Assembly: GCA_016937175.1 (NCBI GenBank)
Contig: JAFGWL010000049.1
Span: 1-20,626, forward strand
Direction of reading: 5' to 3'
DNA from: Candidatus Mcinerneyibacteriota bacterium
GTDB taxonomy: Bacteria; Macinerneyibacteriota; Macinerneyibacteria; Macinerneyibacteriales; DSCS01
DNA length: 20,626 nucleotides
This document shows positions 1,427 to 20,270 of this stretch, in pieces. The notes below the pieces were generated by a model. The model searched no databases and was not told where the DNA came from. It saw only the letters and a program-made list of their open reading frames with translations. Positions within the stretch are counted from its first letter, which is position 1, and each line of letters opens with the position of its first letter. A program made the translations under genes and the position numbers.

Positions 1427-4400
1427 CTATTCTGTTTCCCTCTTTCTGTCGAATCCGAAGACTTTACGGATATCCAGGTTGATCATATAGAGGGAAGGGA
1501 TCATAAACAGAGTCAGTAGGCTGGCCAGGAGCAGTCCGTAAGCCAAAGCCATGACCACCGGGACGATGACCTTGGCATCTCCGCCGATGCCATAAACCGT
1601 CGGCAACAGCCCTGCCACAGTGGTCACCGTGGTCAGAATGACCGGACGAAGACGTTGTTTTGCTCCCCGTGCGATATTAGCCATCTGATGACGGCGGTCC
1701 TTGGCAGGATGCTCCTTAAAGACACTGTTGATAAAGTCTATCATCACCACGCTGTCGTTCACAGCCACTCCCATGAGCCCGATCATTCCGATGATCCCCA
1801 TAAAGGAAAGAGGGACCCCGTGAAGCCTGAAGGCCAGAAGCGAGCCCAACAAGCCGAAGGGAATGGTCATCATGATGATAATAGGCTGGGAAAGAGACTT
1901 AAAGAGGAGGATCATGATGAAATAGATGAAGAATACCGCCATGATAAATGCGAAGACCACTCCGCCCATGGTCTCTTTGGTCTGTTCAGCTTCCCCGCCG
2001 AGTTTGAGATAGGCCTGGTCATAATCTTTGACCCGTGGCATAAACTCTTCTACCAGCATGGCGTTGACCTTGGCTGAAGTGGTTACATCAGGATCCACAT
2101 CCGCGGTCACACTGACGACTCTTTCCCCCATATGATGCCTGATCTGAGAGACACCCGCTGCTGTACGCAGGGAGGCCACTTGATTTAAGCGTATCAAACG
2201 CCCCTGATTGTTGGGGACCATGAGATTCAGAAGAAACTCTCTGCTGTCTTTGGCTCCGTTCCCGGCCTTGACGACGAAATCGAGTTTCTGGCGGGTGGTC
2301 TGGATGCTCGTAGCCACCACACCGTTATAGGCAGTCCTGACCGTCCTGGTTATATCGCTCACCGAGAGCCCCAGGGAGGCCAGTTTAGCATAATCCAGTT
2401 CTATCCTGAGCTCCATCTTCCCTTCATCGTAATCGTCATCGATATCGGTCACCCCTGGAATCGTCTTGAGGTAACTCTTCAGCTCTTCGGTTATGGCCAG
2501 AGAGTCCCTCAGGTCCACGGCGATGACTTTCACGTCCACGGCAGCACCCCCGCGCGGCCCTCCGCCTGAGACTCCGGCCCAGACTTGTTTGATACCTTTC
2601 AGCTTTTTCGGATTGATCTCTTCTCTGAGATCTTTCAATATGGCCCGGGCATCTCTTTTTCGCTGCTCTTTGGGAACCAAATTGATGGTAAAGTAGGCTC
2701 TCTTGTTTCCGGAGCTTCCCGTGCTTCCTGTCTGTGTCTGCAGGGCTTCCAGCTCCTCGGGCTTGACTTTTTGAAGGATGATCTCCTCAATGGCAGCGGC
2801 CCTCTTTTCCATCTCATCCAGGCTGATCCCCTCTTCGGGAGCCTCTACCGTGAGCCTTATCCGGTCTGCGGAGTTATCATACATCAGGACAAAGTTTCTG
2901 ATGGTCGGCTGGGAGACCCAGAGTATGGCAGCTCCCATGAGGATGACAACCAGAAGCAGAAGATAACGCAAACGCAGCACTTTATTGAGCAACCGCTCAT
3001 ACCCGTCCCGTAAAGGCTGGAACCAGTGAGCCTTTTTGCGGGCTTTAGCCGGACGGACATGGGCCAGGTGGTTAGGAAGGATTACAAATGCTTCAAAGAG
3101 GGAAAAGAGAAGCATGGCCGAGATCACCACAGGGAAAAAGGAGATAAATTTTCCCATCATCCCCCCGATAGTATAGAGAGGCATGAAGGCAGCGATGGTA
3201 CTTACAATGGTCACGGTGACTGCCGGCATGACTCTCATGGTCCCCTTGACGGCAGCGTCCACCGAAGGCATCCCTTTTCTTTTATTTTCAAAGATGACAT
3301 CGGCCACGACTATCCCGTCATCCACAAGCATTCCGATCACCGTGATTATCGCCCCCAGGGTGATGACATTCAGCGTCTGGTCGATGGAATACATGTAGAT
3401 CATAGTAAGAAAAAGGGATATGGGGATGCCGAAAGCCGTCCAGAAAGATGTCCGGACATCCAGGAAGAAAAGAAGGATGACGATGACAAGGATAAATCCG
3501 ATAATGGCATTGGACTGTACCACACTCAATAGAGATGAGACATTGCGGGAGCGGTCTCCGATGACAGTGATCTCCATGTTTTCCGGGACCTGGGCTTGAA
3601 AATCCTTTAAAAAGGCCCTGATATTTTTATTGGTCCGCATGATATCGGCATTTTCCTTCTTTTTGATGTCAATATCGACGCCGTTCTGCCCGTTGACCCG
3701 GAAACGGATATTCTCCTCTTCAAAATCATCCACCACCTGGGCGATATCCTTCACACGGACACGCTTTTCCCCGAAGTTGGAGCGGACTATTACTTCTCCC
3801 ACCTGCATGGGGTCATGGAAGATCCCGTCCGTGACCACAAGATGCTCTCCCTGTTCCAGGTCGATGCTTCCTCCCGTGGAACGGGTGTTTCTGGCATTGA
3901 TAGCACTGACGATATTGTTGAGTGAGACATAGTACTCTTCCATCTTATTGGGATTTACGACGATATGGATCTCACGCTCCCTGTACCCGTCGATCTCGAT
4001 CTCCCCCACACCTTCCACCTTTTTCAGCTCGTCTTTGAGCCGGTCTGTGAAATAAAAAAGCTCGCGGGGTTCCACTGTGTAGCCTTTTTTGGCTGTAACA
4101 CTGATACTGAAGACTGTAAACATCGTGGGGCTGAAATCAATGACGTTGATCTCATCCACTTCGGAAGGCAGGCCGGAGATGTTGGATATGGAGATCCGGC
4201 GGAAGATCTCATCCTTTACCGCCTGGGGATCCTTCAGTCCTTCATCGAGGTTCACGGTGATACTGGCTCCGTTTTCAAAAGCCACGGAGTTAAACTCATC
4301 TATCCCGCTGATGTTTTCCAGCTCCTCTTCCACGGGGATGACGACATTCATCTCCACGTCTTCGGGGCTGGCTCCGGGGTAGGCGATATGAACCATCATA

Positions 4401-4534
4401 AAGTGGGACTCCACATTGGGCATATGATCCTGTTTCACGCGCAGGAGGCTGAAGACTCCTCCAAGTACGATGAGGATCACCAGAATATTGACGACAAGTT
4501 TATTTTCTGCGAAATAACGGATAAATTTTTCCAT
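1427..4534 (-). CDS. RND-family efflux permease (AcrB/MMPL-like inner-membrane pump)
   Basis: A 1035-residue inner-membrane transporter of the resistance-nodulation-division superfamily, which uses the proton gradient to export drugs, metals or lipophilic compounds. It shows the duplicated plan: one membrane helix near the N terminus, a large periplasmic loop (about 35-340), six helices, a second loop, six helices. The helix-4 proton-relay motif GMLVDDGIVVAD carries the paired aspartates (405/406 from this start). Helix 10 reads GVAVNDSVVMIDF, with Asn near the place of the AcrB lysine, as in many non-AcrB RND families. Substrate cannot be told. A GTG at 4540 is also in frame, but the GGGGGAG ribosome site is 5 bases before ATG 4534 and abuts the GTG, so ATG is preferred. 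The TolC-like gene ends 15 bases upstream. No adaptor (MFP/HlyD) gene is present. Confidence 0.93.
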   Translation of the reverse strand: MEKFIRYFAENKLVVNILVILIVLGGVFSLLRVKQDHMPNVESHFMMVHIAYPGASPEDVEMNVVIPVEEELENISGIDEFNSVAFENGASITVNLDEGLKDPQAVKDEIFRRISISNISGLPSEVDEINVIDFSPTMFTVFSISVTAKKGYTVEPRELFYFTDRLKDELKKVEGVGEIEIDGYREREIHIVVNPNKMEEYYVSLNNIVSAINARNTRSTGGSIDLEQGEHLVVTDGIFHDPMQVGEVIVRSNFGEKRVRVKDIAQVVDDFEEENIRFRVNGQNGVDIDIKKKENADIMRTNKNIRAFLKDFQAQVPENMEITVIGDRSRNVSSLLSVVQSNAIIGFILVIVILLFFLDVRTSFWTAFGIPISLFLTMIYMYSIDQTLNVITLGAIITVIGMLVDDGIVVADVIFENKRKGMPSVDAAVKGTMRVMPAVTVTIVSTIAAFMPLYTIGGMMGKFISFFPVVISAMLLFSLFEAFVILPNHLAHVRPAKARKKAHWFQPLRDGYERLLNKVLRLRYLLLLVVILMGAAILWVSQPTIRNFVLMYDNSADRIRLTVEAPEEGISLDEMEKRAAAIEEIILQKVKPEELEALQTQTGSTGSSGNKRAYFTINLVPKEQRKRDARAILKDLREEINPKKLKGIKQVWAGVSGGGPRGGAAVDVKVIAVDLRDSLAITEELKSYLKTIPGVTDIDDDYDEGKMELRIELDYAKLASLGLSVSDITRTVRTAYNGVVATSIQTTRQKLDFVVKAGNGAKDSREFLLNLMVPNNQGRLIRLNQVASLRTAAGVSQIRHHMGERVVSVTADVDPDVTTSAKVNAMLVEEFMPRVKDYDQAYLKLGGEAEQTKETMGGVVFAFIMAVFFIYFIMILLFKSLSQPIIIMMTIPFGLLGSLLAFRLHGVPLSFMGIIGMIGLMGVAVNDSVVMIDFINSVFKEHPAKDRRHQMANIARGAKQRLRPVILTTVTTVAGLLPTVYGIGGDAKVIVPVVMALAYGLLLASLLTLFMIPSLYMINLDIRKVFGFDRKRETE

Positions 4535-4549
4535 ACTCACTCCCCCTGC

Positions 4550-5947
4550 TTACCGGTTTTGCTCTGTGATGTACCGGTAGTCCAAATAACTCTCTATAAG
4601 GCTGTATTTTAAGCTGTTGATCTGAATAAGCTCTCCGGTGATCTGATTATCAGTCTGGATCAGACTGTTTAGTTCCAGTCGGGCTTGGTTGTATTTGATC
4701 TCCTGCGCTTCATATTGTTTTCTTAAAGTCTCCAGGTTCTCCATCCTCAAGTCGAGAAGTTCTTTGCTTCCGCCCAGAGAAGCGATAAGGCGGCCTGTCA
4801 TCTTTTCGTAATTCATGGCAGAACGTTCGATCTCCAGGCCCAGGGACTCATATTCCAGCTTTGAGACAGAGACCCCTGCTTTAGATGCCCTGTTTCCCAG
4901 GGGCATGCGGAACGTCAGGCTGAGCCTGTAATCGGCATCCCCGATCCTGTAGGAATCAGAAAATTCTTCAGCCTGGGTCTTGAAGGTCAGGCCGGCAGAG
5001 AGATTGAGCTCCGGTTTTGTCTTCTCTTTGCTCAATGTGATGTCAAGTCCGGCTTGTTCCAATGTCGTCGAAAGGATATGGTAGGCCCGTGTCTCCTCAA
5101 AAGGCCTACGTGAGAAATCACTTTGTGAAGCATGCCGCCACATGGCCTCGTAAAGGGCCAGGTCGGGAGATTTACCAGTAAGGTCTATATAGGGAGCCAA
5201 CTCCTTTTTGAGTAGTGCTACACTCTTCTGTGTCTCGACCAGGCTTTCGCGATAGGTCAGGACCGTGGAATGGCTCTGATGGACGTCATCAGCATCAGCC
5301 AGATTGTTCCTGAACCGCCTCATGATCTCCTCTTCCATGCGAAGGGCATTCTCGATACGTTTTTCCAGAAGGCCCAAGGCTGTCTCCAGGGAGGCCCATT
5401 GATAGTAGAATTTGGTAAAGTCATTTCGCAATGCCGCCATGTCTTCAGCAGTCTGCAGTTTCCGGATCTGAAGATCTAACTTGCTTTTGAGGTAGGGGAT
5501 CTTGTTAAGAGTCCCTAAATAATTTTTCAATAAAGGCTGTGTAACATCAAGGGTCAGCGCCGGGGAGAAGCGTTCCGTGGTATTACCGGCTGTATCGGTT
5601 CCTGTAAAATCATATTCCATCCCTGCTGTGAGAGAGGCTCCGGTAGAGGCAAGAGTCTTTTCTATGCGCGTATAGAGGGAGAGGCCGTTGGCATAATCAT
5701 AGCCACTGTATCCCTTCGTCCCGGAATAAGCAGCTCCTGCGCTCAGGGTGAGATCTTTGTAGGAATCGGTGATGACTGTATTGAGAGAGGCCTTCTCTTC
5801 TGCTATCAAACTCTGCCGGATCTCAGGAAGTTTCCCGGTTATTTCCTCTAAATAAGTATCCAGGCTCAGGACCTCTTCACTGAAAGAGGGTACTGTAAGA
5901 GCCGATATAAAAACGGCCAGTAAAAAATACATTTTCAAAAGCTTCAT
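4550..5947 (-). CDS. TolC-family outer-membrane efflux protein
   Basis: A 465-residue outer-membrane factor expected to form a trimeric beta-barrel plus periplasmic alpha-tunnel that carries RND substrates out of the cell. Residues 1-23 form a signal peptide (basic MKLLK, hydrophobic core, then SFSEE). The rest alternates long amphipathic helices rich in Glu/Lys/Leu with short beta segments ending in aromatic residues, the two-repeat pattern of the OEP family. The C-terminal part (roughly 395-450, QYEAQEIKYNQARLELNSL) is the typical last coiled-coil hairpin. Its ATG overlaps the tetR stop codon in an ATGA arrangement, which indicates translational coupling. The RND pump follows 15 bases after its stop. 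Identity within the family is clear, but the exported substrate is unknown. Confidence 0.92.
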   Translation of the reverse strand: MKLLKMYFLLAVFISALTVPSFSEEVLSLDTYLEEITGKLPEIRQSLIAEEKASLNTVITDSYKDLTLSAGAAYSGTKGYSGYDYANGLSLYTRIEKTLASTGASLTAGMEYDFTGTDTAGNTTERFSPALTLDVTQPLLKNYLGTLNKIPYLKSKLDLQIRKLQTAEDMAALRNDFTKFYYQWASLETALGLLEKRIENALRMEEEIMRRFRNNLADADDVHQSHSTVLTYRESLVETQKSVALLKKELAPYIDLTGKSPDLALYEAMWRHASQSDFSRRPFEETRAYHILSTTLEQAGLDITLSKEKTKPELNLSAGLTFKTQAEEFSDSYRIGDADYRLSLTFRMPLGNRASKAGVSVSKLEYESLGLEIERSAMNYEKMTGRLIASLGGSKELLDLRMENLETLRKQYEAQEIKYNQARLELNSLIQTDNQITGELIQINSLKYSLIESYLDYRYITEQNR

Positions 5948-6546
5948 TCCCTGTCCTTCCTTTCTTTGGCTGCTTTGACCAAAATATAAAACTCATCCCG
6001 GAATCCTTCCTTGATCTTCCGATCGCTCATATCGAGTACATCCTGCCACATCTCCTTCATCGAGGTGTAGAGCATCATAGGGGCCAGATGGAAAAAGACA
6101 AAACGGAACATGAACTGTTCCGGGACGATGGACTCACTCGTCTCTTTACAGAACTCCGCCGTGGACTCCCGGGCCCATTTGCTCAGATAGGTGACAAAAC
6201 TTTCGCGGACATCACTCCGCTTGGGGATCTCGGCAAAGATGATCTTGAGATAAGGCTCCATCCGGCCGAACTTCTCCAGGAGAAACTCCCGCTGTTTATT
6301 ATGAAACTCAGGATCCTCTTTCGTGATCTTCTCCCTGGATTCCAGTCGTTTTTCAGTAAGATATTCGAAAAAGTGGGCAATGATCTCCTGAAGGAGCTCA
6401 TCCTTCTTTTTAAAATAGTGGTAGACAAGAGACTTTGTCACTCCGGCACGCGATGCGATCTCTGAAAGCGCCGTCCCGTCGAATCCTTTGGTTGAAAAGA
6501 GGTCCAGAGCGCTCTGCAAAATCTCTTTTCTCGTGTCGTGTTCCAT
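5944..6546 (-). CDS. TetR/AcrR-family transcriptional repressor
   Basis: A 200-residue one-component regulator. The N-terminal TetR DNA-binding domain is plain: KEILQSALDLFSTKGFDGTA, then the helix-turn-helix at about 25-46 with AGVTKSLVYHYFKKKDELL. The C-terminal helical domain (about 60-200) is divergent, as usual for ligand-binding domains of this family. The reading frame opens at 6612, but that codon lies in the -35 box of the promoter; ATG 6546 has GGGGAGGG three bases upstream and starts exactly at the conserved domain. As first gene of tetR-tolC-RND it most likely represses its own operon through the GACCGGTC palindrome at the promoter and is released by a pump substrate. The inducer cannot be read from sequence. 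Confidence 0.92.
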   Translation of the reverse strand: MEHDTRKEILQSALDLFSTKGFDGTALSEIASRAGVTKSLVYHYFKKKDELLQEIIAHFFEYLTEKRLESREKITKEDPEFHNKQREFLLEKFGRMEPYLKIIFAEIPKRSDVRESFVTYLSKWARESTAEFCKETSESIVPEQFMFRFVFFHLAPMMLYTSMKEMWQDVLDMSDRKIKEGFRDEFYILVKAAKERKDRE

Positions 6547-6564: not shown

Positions 6565-6584
6565 TTGACTTGCCGACCGGTCAA
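6565..6584 (-). promoter_or_regulatory. Candidate TetR operator
   Basis: An inverted repeat TTGAC-N10-GTCAA (6565-6569 with 6580-6584) contains the perfect 8-bp palindrome GACCGGTC (6575-6582). It touches the -10 box and covers the expected transcription start of the tetR operon, an ideal place for steric repression. TetR-family sites of the GACCGGTC type are well known. That the adjacent TetR protein binds here is inference. Confidence 0.65.
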
Positions 6585-6612
6585 TAATAGAGTATTCTCC
6601 GCGGGCTGTCAA
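6584..6612 (-). promoter_or_regulatory. Proximal promoter P1 of tetR-tolC-RND
   Basis: A perfect TTGACA -35 (6607-6612) and a TATTAT -10 (6584-6589) are spaced by 17 bases on the minus strand. Start of transcription should fall near 6577, inside the palindromic operator, about 30 bases before the tetR ATG. The near-consensus strength suits a promoter that is normally held down by a repressor. Confidence 0.8.
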
Positions 6613-6655: not shown

Positions 6656-6689
6656 ACTTTACCACGGAAATGTGGAGTGAATGTGGAGG
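6656..6689 (-). promoter_or_regulatory. Distal promoter P2 with 11-bp direct-repeat activator box
   Basis: Two direct repeats (plus-strand AAATGTGGAGT and GAATGTGGAGG, 6668-6689) are spaced by 11 bases. Six bases downstream on the minus strand lies TAAAGT (6656-6661) as a -10 hexamer. No consensus -35 exists; the repeats occupy that place, as in promoters activated by OmpR/PhoB-type response regulators. The same arrangement with only A/G differences in the repeats stands before the Spy-like gene (16175-16208). The transcript would run through P1 into tetR-tolC-RND with a leader of about 100 bases. The rest of the gap between the O-antigen gene and tetR (6613-6730) shows no gene and no convincing terminator. 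Confidence 0.6.
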
Positions 6690-15591: not shown

Positions 15592-15621
15592 AAAAAAAAA
15601 GCCCCTTTTCAGGGGCTTTTT
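15592..15621 (-). terminator. Rho-independent terminator after the Spy-like gene
   Basis: GCCCC (15601-15605) and GGGGC (15612-15616) pair around a six-base loop, extended by A/T pairs. Nine T residues follow on the minus strand (A run 15592-15600), with five on the other side, so it could act in both directions. It starts 26 bases after the stop codon and separates the Spy-like unit from the polysaccharide operon. Confidence 0.92.
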
Positions 15622-15646: not shown

Positions 15647-16147
15647 TCAGTCGTTATCCCACCCGAAAGGGCCTTCACCCATTCCGGGACGCTGTCCCAT
15701 TCCGGCGCCTTTGGCAGGCCTCTGCCCACCCTGACGCATCATTTTCATTCCGAGTCCGAAAAGATCACGCTCTTCTTTTGACAGGCTTTTCATAATGGTG
15801 AGCTGCTGATCCTTATGGATCTTCCACATGGCATCGCGGTTGGCCTTCTGCTTATCCATGATTTCAGAGACTCTGTTCCAATCAGGATTGTCTTTCATCA
15901 TCTCTTCTTTAAGGGAAAGAACGAGTTTCTCCTGCTCCAGGCGCAGCGTCTGTATCTTTTCCCGGTTGGCTTCAAACATTTTCTCATGCTGCTCGAATAT
16001 CTTGTCTCTTAAGGCCTGCATCTCTTCTTGCTTCTCATTGCGGAATCCTGCTCCGCCCTTCATCCCATCGCCGTTACCGCGGGGAAATGCCATAAGAGCG
16101 CTGACGCCGATCAACACCATCAAAACCAAGACCAATGATTTTCTCAT
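15647..16147 (-). CDS. Spy/CpxP-like periplasmic stress or metal-response protein
   Basis: A 166-residue exported protein. The signal peptide is clear (MRKSLVLVLMVLIGVSALMA, cleavage near AFP). The mature part is a charged all-helical region: QEEMQALRDKIFEQHEKMFE, REKIQTLRLEQEKLVLSLKE, DWNRVSEIMDKQKANRDAMW, then IMKSLSKEERDLFG, the place where the Spy/CpxP/ZraP family carries its LTxxQ-like motif. The tail is rich in Gly, Met, Gln and Pro. Relatives act as ATP-independent periplasmic chaperones or metal-linked stress sensors; that role is inferred. ATG 16147 is chosen because GGAGGTG lies four bases upstream and the signal peptide starts there, although the frame is open to 16282. It is a single-gene unit with its own promoter, response-regulator-like box and terminator. 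Confidence 0.8.
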   Translation of the reverse strand: MRKSLVLVLMVLIGVSALMAFPRGNGDGMKGGAGFRNEKQEEMQALRDKIFEQHEKMFEANREKIQTLRLEQEKLVLSLKEEMMKDNPDWNRVSEIMDKQKANRDAMWKIHKDQQLTIMKSLSKEERDLFGLGMKMMRQGGQRPAKGAGMGQRPGMGEGPFGWDND

Positions 16148-16174: not shown

Positions 16175-16208
16175 ACTATAGGGACTAAATATGGAGTAAA
16201 TATGGAGA
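16175..16208 (-). promoter_or_regulatory. Promoter of the Spy-like gene with 11-bp direct-repeat box
   Basis: TATAGT (16175-16180) forms the -10. Six bases upstream stand two tandem repeats (plus-strand AAATATGGAGT and AAATATGGAGA, 16187-16208), exactly 11 bases apart. A degenerate third unit, ATAGGGAC (16178-16185), keeps the same phase and overlaps the -10. No -35 consensus is present. Placement and 11-bp period match PhoB/OmpR-type activation sites. The minus-strand core CTCCATATTT resembles the E. coli BaeR box as I recall it (CTCCATDATT). A short leader of about 20 bases leads to the ATG. Confidence 0.65.
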
Positions 16209-16283: not shown

Positions 16284-19200
16284 CTATTTCAGAAGAACCA
16301 TCTTTTTCGTAAACCGTTCTCCATCGATCATCATCACGGCATAATAGACGCCGCTGGGGCACTCGTTCCCCCGGCTGTCCCGGCCGTTCCAATGGACAGT
16401 ATGGAAGCCTGACGGCTTCTCTTCATTCACAAGGGTGATCACCAGGCGGCCCCTGGCATCCCTGATATCCAGGGTGACCATTCCCGGCTCCTTCACTTCG
16501 TAGGGGATATCCGTTTCGGGGTTGAAGGGGTTCGGGAAATTCTGTTTCAGCACTGATGTCTTGACCTGGGGAATGAATGTCATGGTATCATCCTTCACCA
16601 AGGCGTACAGGCCCGATGTTCCGAAGAAAAGATGTTCGCGGCTATAATCCTTGAGGACCCATTCACCGCCCTCTTTTTTCAGCAGAGCCCCTTCCTGCCC
16701 GTAGGGGTTGACGATACTCATGGCGCCTTCCCCGCGTTCGAACGCTGCCTGGAAAAGGAAGGCCCCCTTGACCGGAGGTGTCTCAAACAGAGCGGGACCG
16801 GTGAGGAGAAGCCGGCTTCTCTCTTCAGCGGTGAAGATCAGGCCTGCATAACTCATGGATGCCCCGTCATAGAGGTCACCCACACCCAGAGAGAGGGTAT
16901 CATAGAGAACTCCGTCATAGGAAACAGCGATGCTATGGGTCCCGTTGCTGAACATCACATCATTAAAGGATGTCCCGCTCTCCCAGCGTGCAGCATCTCC
17001 CGTCATCTCCATGGCATAGATTGTCGCTCCGCCGTCGATGGTGATCTCAGCATCAGCAGGATCCATGCTGACACCGGCTGCTAAAGCATAGACCTTGGCA
17101 TGCCCCCAGATCACATCGTTGGGGATGAGATACGAACTGATCCCGTAGACATCCAGAGAAGCCGTATTGCTGTAGTCGGAAGCATTGAGGCTGTTGACAG
17201 CCCGGACTTTAAAGGTGTAGCTTCCCGGAGTGAGATCGCTGATGGTCAATGTGGTGATATCGGCTCCTGTCGTGGACCCGAGATAATCATAGTTGATCCC
17301 GTTGGTGCTGTAGACGACTTCAAACTTATCCTCATTATCGGAATTGTCCGTCCAGGAGAAGAGGACTTCTTTTGAGCCGTTTTTCTCTGCAGTCAACCCG
17401 GAGGGAGCCGTAATGGGGCGGACATCTGTCAAAAAAGAGAAGGTGGTGCTCCAGGCTCCGTCTCCGTAGCTGTTGCTTCCGCGGACACGCCAGTAATAGA
17501 CTGTATACTCACTCAGGGAGACAGTGACACTGGATGTAGTCTCTGTTTCCGTTGCGCTATAGGCCGGGCTACTGAAATCGGAATCATCATCCACTTCCAC
17601 ATCATACGATGTCGACCCTATTGCTGCTTCCCAGCTCAGATCCGGAGAAAAAAGCACTCCTGTGGCATCATCGGCAGGAGTATTCAATGTGACCGGTCCC
17701 GGAACACCGGGCGTCACGAACTCGAGTGTCGTAAAGAGAGACCCGGCTCCCGTACCATCGACTGTCTGCACACGGAAGACAGCTTGTGTGGCCTCCTGAT
17801 CTTCGGGGAATTCCAGGATCCGCATCAGACGATGGCCCGCATTTCCGTCTCCGCTTCGTCTCCGGTCGCCGGTTTCGGAATCAGCCTCTCCGCTGATCAA
17901 CTGATCATCAGCAGCGCCGTCTGCTGCAGCATTATAGGTGAGCAGGTCGGCAGGCGTCTCGCTGTCAGACCCCGCTTCCCAGGTAAACGTCGCTGTGTAC
18001 TGGTCCATGGTGACGTTCGGGTTAGCCGGTGCAGAAGCCACAGTGTTTCCCGGGTTCATATTATTGATATAGACAGTGGTGGTCATCCCCCCTGTCTGGA
18101 GAAGATCCAGGTCTCCGTCGCTGTCGCAATCACCCCAGCGCATATGCCCGTCGGGGATGGGCAGGATGTTGTGCTGGTCAGCAGCAACAGCCGAAAACAT
18201 GCCTGACCCGTTATTGTCATAGAGAACTGTCACACTCCTCCCGACGATATAACCGCTGATGAGATAGTCCACATCCCCGTCATTATTGTAATCTCCCGTG
18301 GTCATGTCATAGGCCCAGACATTGATCGCCGGAATCGGTCCGTCGCTCTCTGTGAAGACATCGCCCCCGTCATTACGGAAGACCACATCCTTGGCATCGT
18401 TGATGAGGATGAGATCCGGGTCGCCGTCTCGGTCATAATCCATCCAGCGTAACACCGCATTACCTGATGCGGACAACTGTGTCCCGGACAGGAGAGTGAA
18501 GGTTCCTTCTCCGTCATTCCGGTAGATCCCCGAGGCCGCAGAGATGTAGTATCCGTAATAGGCCAGGTCCACATCCCCGTCTCCGTCGTAGTCGGCCCAG
18601 CGCGCCTGGCCTTCAAACACATTGGGAACAGCAGGCGATAATTCCGAGAAGCTCCCGGTTCCGTCGTTGACCCAGACCTTCAGGATCATATCGGAAGAGA
18701 CACCGCCGGCCAGGAGGACATCCAGGTCTCCGTCATTATCATAATCTCCGATATCAAAGTTGCTGCGATAAGTGTCTTTCAGGCCCGGGTCTGTCTTTGT
18801 GAAGACAAAGCCGCCTTCATTTTTATAGAGATAGGTCACTTGCGCTATCGACGGAAGCATCCCGTTGAGGAGGATATCCATGTCTCCGTCATTGTCGCAA
18901 TCAAAGACCACGAGGTCTCCTTCAAAGGCCCCATCATAATCGATGCCGGCAGGGGAAAAGTTCCCCGACCCGTCATTGACAAAGACTTTCATCACAGACT
19001 CTTCATCATGGACACCGGTCACCGCAAAATCAAGGTCCCCGTCATTATCGAAGTCGGCCCATTCTCCGGCAGCATCCTGAAGAGAGACATATCCTCCGGT
19101 GAGGTCTGTGTACTCTCCTGAAACGTTTTCATACACTTTCGTGATATGATTTCCCACCATCCAGATATCAGGGTCCCCGTCAGAATCCGTATCAGTCCAG

Positions 19201-20270
19201 GCGGCTTTTGTATAACTTTCTGCACAGTCGATCGCCTGATCGTCTTTTGTATAGACGCCAGTCCCGTCATTGAGAAAGAGCTGGGCCTGGCCGATGAACA
19301 GGTACTTGCCCAGGAGAAGCAGATCCAGGTCCCCGTCTCCGTCGTGATCCTTAAAGAGGGCTGTATCATACCTCCCCCCTGCAAAAGCGGGATTGGTGAT
19401 CGTCGTGAATCCGCCGAGGCCGTCTCCGGCATAAAGGACTGCCTGCTCATTGGAGGATGAATCCCAGCCAGTGATAAACAGGTCAAGGTCACCATCGCCC
19501 GTGACATCAGCCCAGCGCACGGCGCCTTTTCGGACATTGACCAGGGAGGCGACCACATCGGTAAAGACATCGCTTCCATCGTTCCGGTAGACCCGCGAGG
19601 TGTAGTCCCCTGATGATCGGACTCCGATGATCGCCAGGTCAGGATCCCCGTCGCTGTCGAAATCACCCCAGTCAGCATCCACATACATGCTGTAGTCCAG
19701 AAGAGGCATGACCTGGGTAAAGGTCCCGTCCTGGTTGTTCCGATAGATCTTGGTGCTGTATCCGGAGGAGTTGGCCCCCGAGAGAAGAAAGTCCGCGTAC
19801 CCGTCGTTATTGTAATCAGCAGCCTTCAGTATGCCGTTGCCCATTCCCTCTACGCCGATGTCCACAAGCGTGAACATATTGGCGCCGTCGTTTCTGAAGA
19901 CATAAGCCTTGTACTGGGAAAGGACGTTGCTGAATCCGGAGACATAGAGATCCACATCCCCGTCATTGTCATAATCCGCCCAGTCAGAGATCCCGTACAT
20001 CAAATTCTCGATGAGCTGAAGAGGCCCTGAAAGGAGAAATCCCCCGTCGTTCCTGTAGATCTCGATGACAAACTTTGTCGGGTAACTCCCTCCCACAGCC
20101 AGGTCGTCGTCTCCATCATTATCGTAATCCCCCCAGGAGAGGCTTTGAGGGTCAAAGCCGTTAAAGGGCTGATAAGAGTGCTGAGGCACATAATAGGCCA
20201 CCGGAGCAGCGAAAAGAGCCCCGGTGAGGACACAGGCCGTCAACAAAAGAAAAAAGAGCTGCCTTCTCAT
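16284..20270 (-). CDS. Secreted FG-GAP/VCBS repeat protein with C-terminal sorting-type domain
   Basis: A 1328-residue exported protein. Residues 1-21 form a signal peptide (MRRQLFFLLLTACVLTGALFA). From about 40 to 735 come 14 FG-GAP-like repeats, each with a DxDxDG-type calcium loop followed by DLxxxG; the loops fall near 48, 99, 152, 204, 255, 308, 361, 406, 457, 509, 560, 611, 660 and 714, a period of about 51. Fourteen blades would make two seven-bladed beta-propellers. Next come a divergent fibronectin-like region (750-855), two FN3-like domains (about 857-948 and 954-1043), an Ig-like stretch, and a C-terminal domain (1243-1328) starting NFPNPFNPET with GRLV and SGVYYAVM, as in FlgD-Ig/type IX sorting tails. 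Probable surface or released adhesive protein; ligand unknown. GGAG lies four bases before the ATG. Confidence 0.9.
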   Translation of the reverse strand: MRRQLFFLLLTACVLTGALFAAPVAYYVPQHSYQPFNGFDPQSLSWGDYDNDGDDDLAVGGSYPTKFVIEIYRNDGGFLLSGPLQLIENLMYGISDWADYDNDGDVDLYVSGFSNVLSQYKAYVFRNDGANMFTLVDIGVEGMGNGILKAADYNNDGYADFLLSGANSSGYSTKIYRNNQDGTFTQVMPLLDYSMYVDADWGDFDSDGDPDLAIIGVRSSGDYTSRVYRNDGSDVFTDVVASLVNVRKGAVRWADVTGDGDLDLFITGWDSSSNEQAVLYAGDGLGGFTTITNPAFAGGRYDTALFKDHDGDGDLDLLLLGKYLFIGQAQLFLNDGTGVYTKDDQAIDCAESYTKAAWTDTDSDGDPDIWMVGNHITKVYENVSGEYTDLTGGYVSLQDAAGEWADFDNDGDLDFAVTGVHDEESVMKVFVNDGSGNFSPAGIDYDGAFEGDLVVFDCDNDGDMDILLNGMLPSIAQVTYLYKNEGGFVFTKTDPGLKDTYRSNFDIGDYDNDGDLDVLLAGGVSSDMILKVWVNDGTGSFSELSPAVPNVFEGQARWADYDGDGDVDLAYYGYYISAASGIYRNDGEGTFTLLSGTQLSASGNAVLRWMDYDRDGDPDLILINDAKDVVFRNDGGDVFTESDGPIPAINVWAYDMTTGDYNNDGDVDYLISGYIVGRSVTVLYDNNGSGMFSAVAADQHNILPIPDGHMRWGDCDSDGDLDLLQTGGMTTTVYINNMNPGNTVASAPANPNVTMDQYTATFTWEAGSDSETPADLLTYNAAADGAADDQLISGEADSETGDRRRSGDGNAGHRLMRILEFPEDQEATQAVFRVQTVDGTGAGSLFTTLEFVTPGVPGPVTLNTPADDATGVLFSPDLSWEAAIGSTSYDVEVDDDSDFSSPAYSATETETTSSVTVSLSEYTVYYWRVRGSNSYGDGAWSTTFSFLTDVRPITAPSGLTAEKNGSKEVLFSWTDNSDNEDKFEVVYSTNGINYDYLGSTTGADITTLTISDLTPGSYTFKVRAVNSLNASDYSNTASLDVYGISSYLIPNDVIWGHAKVYALAAGVSMDPADAEITIDGGATIYAMEMTGDAARWESGTSFNDVMFSNGTHSIAVSYDGVLYDTLSLGVGDLYDGASMSYAGLIFTAEERSRLLLTGPALFETPPVKGAFLFQAAFERGEGAMSIVNPYGQEGALLKKEGGEWVLKDYSREHLFFGTSGLYALVKDDTMTFIPQVKTSVLKQNFPNPFNPETDIPYEVKEPGMVTLDIRDARGRLVITLVNEEKPSGFHTVHWNGRDSRGNECPSGVYYAVMMIDGERFTKKMVLLK
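18066..20153 (-). repeat. Tandem FG-GAP coding repeats (14 units)
   Basis: The FG-GAP region repeats at DNA level: plus-strand words such as TCCCCGTCATTATC and TCCCCGTCTCCGTC, encoding the DNDGD or DGDGD loops, recur about every 150 bases. Units differ at many positions, so the array is old rather than freshly expanded. It is wholly in frame inside the FG-GAP gene. Confidence 0.85.

Follow-up and report, generated by a model that had tools for sequence, protein, structure and literature searches.

A putative BaeR-type direct-repeat box at the promoters of a Spy-like gene and an RND efflux operon in Candidatus Mcinerneyibacteriota

Analysis of a contig of 20,626 nucleotides from a Candidatus Mcinerneyibacteriota bacterium (the whole of which is here termed the window) revealed two closely similar direct-repeat boxes, one upstream of a gene for a Spy-like secreted protein and the other upstream of a TetR-TolC-RND efflux operon. 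It appears probable that both boxes are bound by a dimeric response regulator of the OmpR/PhoB family with BaeR-type specificity, for which the regulator RR2 is the most likely candidate, and that this regulator would activate both the spy gene and the efflux operon. This reading draws on the sites, their rarity, their conservation, the fixed geometry of the -10 element, an inventory of two candidate regulators and a cross-phylum association between recognition helix and box, all of which were observed.

The paired boxes and their promoters

By direct reading of the plus strand, the two 22-bp elements (6668-6689, AAATGTGGAGTGAATGTGGAGG; 16187-16208, AAATATGGAGTAAATATGGAGA) are identical at 18 of 22 bases, the remaining four being A/G differences, as the first-pass annotation of this DNA had stated. 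On the minus strand their shared core, CTCCAYATTY-A-CTCCAYATTT, is composed of two 10-bp half-sites in an 11-bp register. The spacing of exactly six bases between the repeats and a TAWAGT hexamer, which was likewise noted at that stage, was confirmed for both promoters (CCGTGG at the box 1 promoter and AGTCCC at the box 2 promoter). The features of the window that bear on these promoters are:

1427..4540, minus strand: RND efflux permease (Pfam PF00873, E 4.5e-182)
4550..5947, minus strand: TolC-like outer-membrane efflux protein (Pfam PF02321, E 2.7e-16)
5944..6546, minus strand: TetR-family regulator, first gene of the operon (Pfam PF00440, E 2.3e-17)
6565..6584, minus strand: probable TetR operator TTGACCGGTCGGCAAGTCAA (TGAC-N10-GTCA), overlapping the proximal promoter and lying immediately past its -10
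6584..6612, minus strand: proximal promoter of the efflux operon, consensus sigma-70, with TTGACA (6612-6607), a 17-bp spacer and TATTAT (6589-6584)
6656..6661, minus strand: TAAAGT, the -10 of the box 1 promoter, separated from box 1 by six bases (6662-6667)
6668..6688, minus strand: box 1, half-sites CTCCACATTC (6688-6679) and CTCCACATTT (6677-6668), upstream of the TetR-TolC-RND operon
15592..15618, minus strand: intrinsic terminator AAGCCCCTGAAAAGGGGCTT with a T run, 3' of the Spy-like gene
15647..16147, minus strand: Spy/CpxP/ZraP-like secreted protein of 166 aa (Pfam PF13801 Metal_resist, 32.2 bits against a cut-off of 29.2)
16175..16180, minus strand: TATAGT, the -10 of the spy promoter, separated from box 2 by six bases (16181-16186)
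16187..16207, minus strand: box 2, half-sites CTCCATATTT (16207-16198) and CTCCATATTT (16196-16187), upstream of the Spy-like gene

The first-pass annotation had also held that no -35 is present, and this is correct for both box promoters, a promoter search having returned no -35/-10 pair at the spy promoter. It does not extend to the efflux operon, which additionally possesses a consensus TTGACA-N17-TATTAT promoter between box 1 and the start codon; this proximal promoter had been overlooked in the earlier account, and the first gene of the operon is to be read as a TetR-type regulator. The efflux operon consequently has two promoters. The TTGACA of the proximal promoter is kept in a congener (G001) and in a genome from another family of the order (G002), while the palindrome TTGACCGGTCGGCAAGTCAA is identical in G001 and its TGAC-N10-GTCA pattern is also present in G002. 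The three genes of the operon overlap or nearly touch, and no gene for a membrane fusion protein was found within it (1427-6546) or within the corresponding operon of either relative; HlyD_D23 proteins are encoded elsewhere in the genome (C44, C37 and C9).

Regarding the other target, assignment to the Spy/CpxP/ZraP family follows from the PF13801 match above cut-off. The predicted model of the protein has a mean pLDDT of 72.6, with core helices above 90, and its best Foldseek matches are Spy, CpxP and ZraP, these being weak (E about 0.1, probability up to 0.98). The protein is possibly also a metal binder. Since a strong minus-strand terminator follows the gene, it is probably monocistronic; the terminator scan listed only a plus-strand version, and the minus-strand terminator was read directly. 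Positions 16284-20270 of the window encode a protein of 1328 aa with at least 11 FG-GAP repeats, an fn3 domain, a FlgD-like C-terminal domain and a sorting-domain-like tail.

Rarity and conservation of the box

A 21-bp core with up to three mismatches allowed is expected 0.01 times per window and was observed twice, on both occasions with zero mismatches. In the whole genome (1,879,816 bases, 98.7% complete) the two window sites are the only core matches at this threshold, and the element is thus not scattered, which had been raised at the outset as a possible objection; both matches lie in promoters. The full 33-bp pattern (box, six bases and TAWWNT) had been widened to take in the sites of the relatives, so that the fair test is the comparison with unrelated genomes: among 386 genomes it matched five times in the three genomes of the order and once in the other 383. 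The reversed control pattern gave zero matches in the same 386 genomes. An extra site in the own genome (C56:7232, three mismatches over 33 bp) overlaps the 5' end of an oppositely oriented gene and was taken as a chance match.

The element is kept at orthologous promoters, its absence from which would have spoken against the first-pass reading. Precisely two core matches occur in G001, on one contig and upstream of the orthologous Spy-like and TetR genes, while G002 has a single match, 5' of a Spy-like gene, on a contig that also bears a TetR-TolC-RND operon:

G001:C11:18548-18568: counterpart of box 1, upstream of the orthologous TetR gene
G001:C11:8288-8308 and G002:C52:14423-14443: counterparts of box 2, upstream of Spy-like genes

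Although the 21-bp box search imposed no -10, TANNNT is located exactly six bases past the repeats in all five sites of the order (TATTCT at the box 1 promoter of G001; TATAGT and TATATT at the spy promoters of G001 and G002, respectively). When the promoters of the window were aligned with those of the congener, the boxes were found to be conserved while the flanks barely align. Head-to-tail half-sites in an 11-bp register and replacement of the -35 at a fixed distance from the -10 are both features of OmpR/PhoB-type sites, and the original description of the element as an OmpR/PhoB-type activator box is supported by this arrangement. In G002 no box was found at the TetR operon, for which only the proximal promoter was detected, nor at a second spy gene; the link between the box and efflux is therefore shown only in this genus. 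A DUF302 gene of G002 (L076:1087-1467, on G002:C34) is preceded by a weaker box, CTTCATAGTATTTTCACATTT, which scores 18.5 and has TATATT at +6, and is a possible further member of the regulon.

Two readings would diminish the significance of these sites. It could be argued that the likeness of two A/T-rich promoters is fortuitous, given that degenerate versions of the box produce weak scattered matches in the A/T-rich G002, the control orientation included; the expectation of 0.01 for the core, the excess of pattern matches in the order over those in the 383 other genomes and the recurrence of the sites at orthologous promoters render the probability of this negligible, conservation having already refuted it. 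A more specific reservation is that the efflux box is a relic, with TetR at the proximal promoter exerting the sole practical control and the spy gene alone constituting the real regulon. The strong proximal promoter, positioned with its conserved operator between box and gene, is in keeping with such a view, as is the finding of only this promoter in the other family, but the congener retains the box together with its +6 TANNNT while neighbouring bases differ, and we regard a relic as unlikely.

The candidate regulator and its alternatives

Each of the three genomes of the order encodes exactly two regulators with the OmpR/PhoB DNA-binding domain (PF00486), both of which have clear orthologs across the three. 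One of these, RR2, is encoded next to a histidine kinase:

G000:C10:7911-8597, minus strand: RR2 response regulator, PF00486, recognition helix DSHIKNIR
G000:C10:6637-7914: membrane histidine kinase next to RR2, with an extracytoplasmic loop of about 105 residues

The helix is DSHIKNIR in the own genome and the congener and DTHIKNIR in G002, the orthologs keeping D[ST]HIKNIR, and the gene order recF-RR-HK is also maintained, with recF upstream of RR2 in both relatives. The pair follows dnaA, dnaN, recF and a DciA-like gene (G000:C10:6637-12358), which is an unusual location for genes of an envelope-stress system. A regulator pair preceded by the same box had been named in the first-pass annotation as something to look for; a search of this dnaA-dnaN-recF-DciA-RR-HK cluster found no such box. 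No curated family name could be given to RR2, as every NCBIfam model listed falls below its cut-off. The extracytoplasmic loop of the kinase (L033:212-1489; L096:164-1489) is rich in Met and Arg (in G002, MHNKDRMSMRHHMRMRNNMPDMRGR) and resembles the tails of the Spy-like proteins, a possible pointer to chaperone feedback or to the sensing of metals.

The only other OmpR-type regulator of the genome is PhoB-like and is encoded beside pstS and a PhoR-like kinase. Were it to read the boxes, the regulon would be one of phosphate; yet its helix is DVHIKHIR, the target genes are not phosphate genes, no convincing box was found at its locus, and in both the own genome and the congener the pstS promoter, which lies between pstS and phoB, has TTAAC-N6-TTAAC repeats, a box unlike the CTCCAYATT repeats. 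We therefore consider this assignment highly improbable, and as the PhoB-like regulator lies beside a promoter with the TTAAC-N6-TTAAC box, RR2 is left as the candidate reader among PF00486 regulators; elimination and helix together point to it as the cognate winged-helix regulator. There is rather more room, albeit still little, for another direct-repeat binder, such as a LytTR regulator or some regulator outside PF00486, the genome encoding two LytTR proteins of which one is a response regulator (C52), and LytTR sites being direct repeats as well. The repeat spacing of LytTR sites is, however, approximately 21 bp, and their core is unlike CTCCAYATT. Moreover, the cross-phylum association described below concerns OmpR-type regulators that share a single helix class, and a matrix derived from the sites of the order finds the BaeR targets of E. 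coli.

Relation to BaeSR and a wider specificity class

The matrix in question was built from the five sites of the order and run on the E. coli spy, mdtA, baeSR and creBCD regions together with 150 kb of control DNA. The mdtA promoter ranked first (20.1) and spy second (15.8), the latter only narrowly above the best of 299,874 control positions (15.0); matches at creD (11.7 and 9.8) are within noise and were discounted as support. Published BaeR boxes are TTTTTCTCCATDATTGGC and TCTNCANAA (PMC3799227), and the match at E. coli spy is the former, TTTTTCTCCATDATTGGC. The published BaeR boxes found, in a search mainly of non-subscription literature, concern proteobacteria.

The likeness to BaeSR encompasses CTCCAT-type half-sites in an 11-bp repeat, the recognition helix (DSHIKNIR in RR2, DSHIKNLR in BaeR of MG1655) and the combination of a Spy-family with an RND-efflux target, target status here being read from the boxes. 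In E. coli the CTCCA half-site of mdtA and spy ends 17 (11+6) bp before a TACACT, in the same phase as here; this TACACT could be the -10. The 17-bp phase is as would be expected with one more repeat between. A BaeR-like rather than CpxR-like specificity, as first proposed, is thus favoured by box, helix and matrix. In E. coli CpxAR also controls Spy-family chaperones (CpxP, Spy), but the CpxR box is GTAAA-N5-GTAAA, which on direct reading is absent from both strands of both sites, and RR2 scores 149.3 against a CpxR cut-off of 341.

There are, on the other hand, clear differences from BaeSR. RR2 scores 168.5 against the curated BaeR cut-off of 380, and the kinase 120.5 and 135.3 against the curated BaeS cut-offs of 603 and 500, respectively. 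While mdtABCD-baeSR forms one operon in E. coli with a BaeR site upstream (PMC7657598), the RR2-HK pair resides in the dnaA-dnaN-recF cluster, outside the efflux operon and without a box of its own, and the efflux operon lacks a membrane fusion protein and has its own TetR. Because both proteins fall far below the cut-offs and the pair is placed in this manner, it was not filed as BaeSR; the RR2 system would work like a BaeR regulon, yet RR2 is not BaeR by the curated cut-off. CreBC/BlrAB shares the 11-bp register and a T[TC]CA[CT] core, the CreB site being TTCACN6TTCAC (PMC4689548) and the helix of E. coli CreB DTHIKTLR, but differs in its targets (creD), and RR2 reaches a score of only 158.5 where the cut-off for CreB is 273. 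Among Clostridia, the OmpR/PhoB-family regulator RR_1586 of C. difficile recognises a head-to-tail repeat of an 11-nt motif, DRTTAAGNWWW (PMC6222199), which is the arrangement seen here with a different core.

A scan of public genome contigs with the 33-bp pattern, by which the six-base spacing and the -10 are imposed, returned at least 117 loci. Among the matches listed, 28 of 30 OmpR-type regulators at box loci carry the helix D[STA][HY][IV]K[NKM]; in the background set, with the RR2 ortholog excluded, none of 27 regulators does so (Fisher p 3e-14, a value that overstates independence, many of the box loci being related and from Tissierellia or Clostridium). The helix class also occurs beyond these groups, at box loci with the labels Geobacteraceae (L234), Nitrospirae (L215) and Anaerolineae (L239). 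Genes starting no more than 120 bp past a box, again among the matches listed, encode HtrA-type proteases (8), DUF2680 secreted proteins (6), SHOCT proteins (5), OmpR-type regulators (4), PepSY proteins (3) and HlyD proteins (2), with one TolC-like and one CopC protein among the remainder; some matches are AT-rich, repeat-like or coding and probably due to chance, and were used in these tallies only. In Bacillota the same kind of box occurs 5' of cysteine-synthase-like genes (L184, L227), L184 having two boxes (447-479 and 687-719) 240 bp apart, and in Helicobacter genomes (L132, L213, L229) a box is situated 27-28 bp before a gene for a PepSY-type membrane protein.

On balance, we lean towards the view that box and helix form one ancient specificity class, in which D[STA][HY][IV]KN[IL]R regulators would read CTTCAYATT-type 11-bp repeats six bases before a -10 and control envelope-quality genes (Spy/DUF2680 proteins, HtrA, RND/TolC/HlyD efflux and copper handling). 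The class would encompass this lineage and E. coli as well as Bacillota, Nitrospirota, Chloroflexota and Geobacter-like genomes, and its known proteobacterial members would be BaeR and CreB.

In the mechanism that we propose, the extracytoplasmic loop of the kinase would sense envelope stress and the kinase would phosphorylate its neighbour RR2, which would then load onto the two head-to-tail half-sites in place of a -35 and bring sigma-70 RNA polymerase to the -10 that lies six bases further downstream. The level of the Spy-like periplasmic protein and, via the distal promoter, that of the TetR-TolC-RND efflux operon would be raised as a result, while the efflux operon would keep its separate TetR-type promoter. 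That RR2 is the binder and the activator, and what the signal is, we infer. The envelope-stress regulon linking chaperone and efflux in a distant lineage, as envisaged in the first-pass annotation, accordingly stands in part: Spy-family and RND targets are indicated by their boxes, with the efflux link confined to this genus.

Regulon, regulator and -10 geometry are predicted here from sequence alone in an uncultured lineage. The envelope-stress switch of E. coli seems to have a close counterpart in a lineage very distant from that group. This points to a BaeR-type combination of helix, DNA box and target function (chaperone and efflux) that is of much greater age and breadth than its enterobacterial version. 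With such a helix-to-box rule, envelope-stress regulons could be called directly in many genomes.
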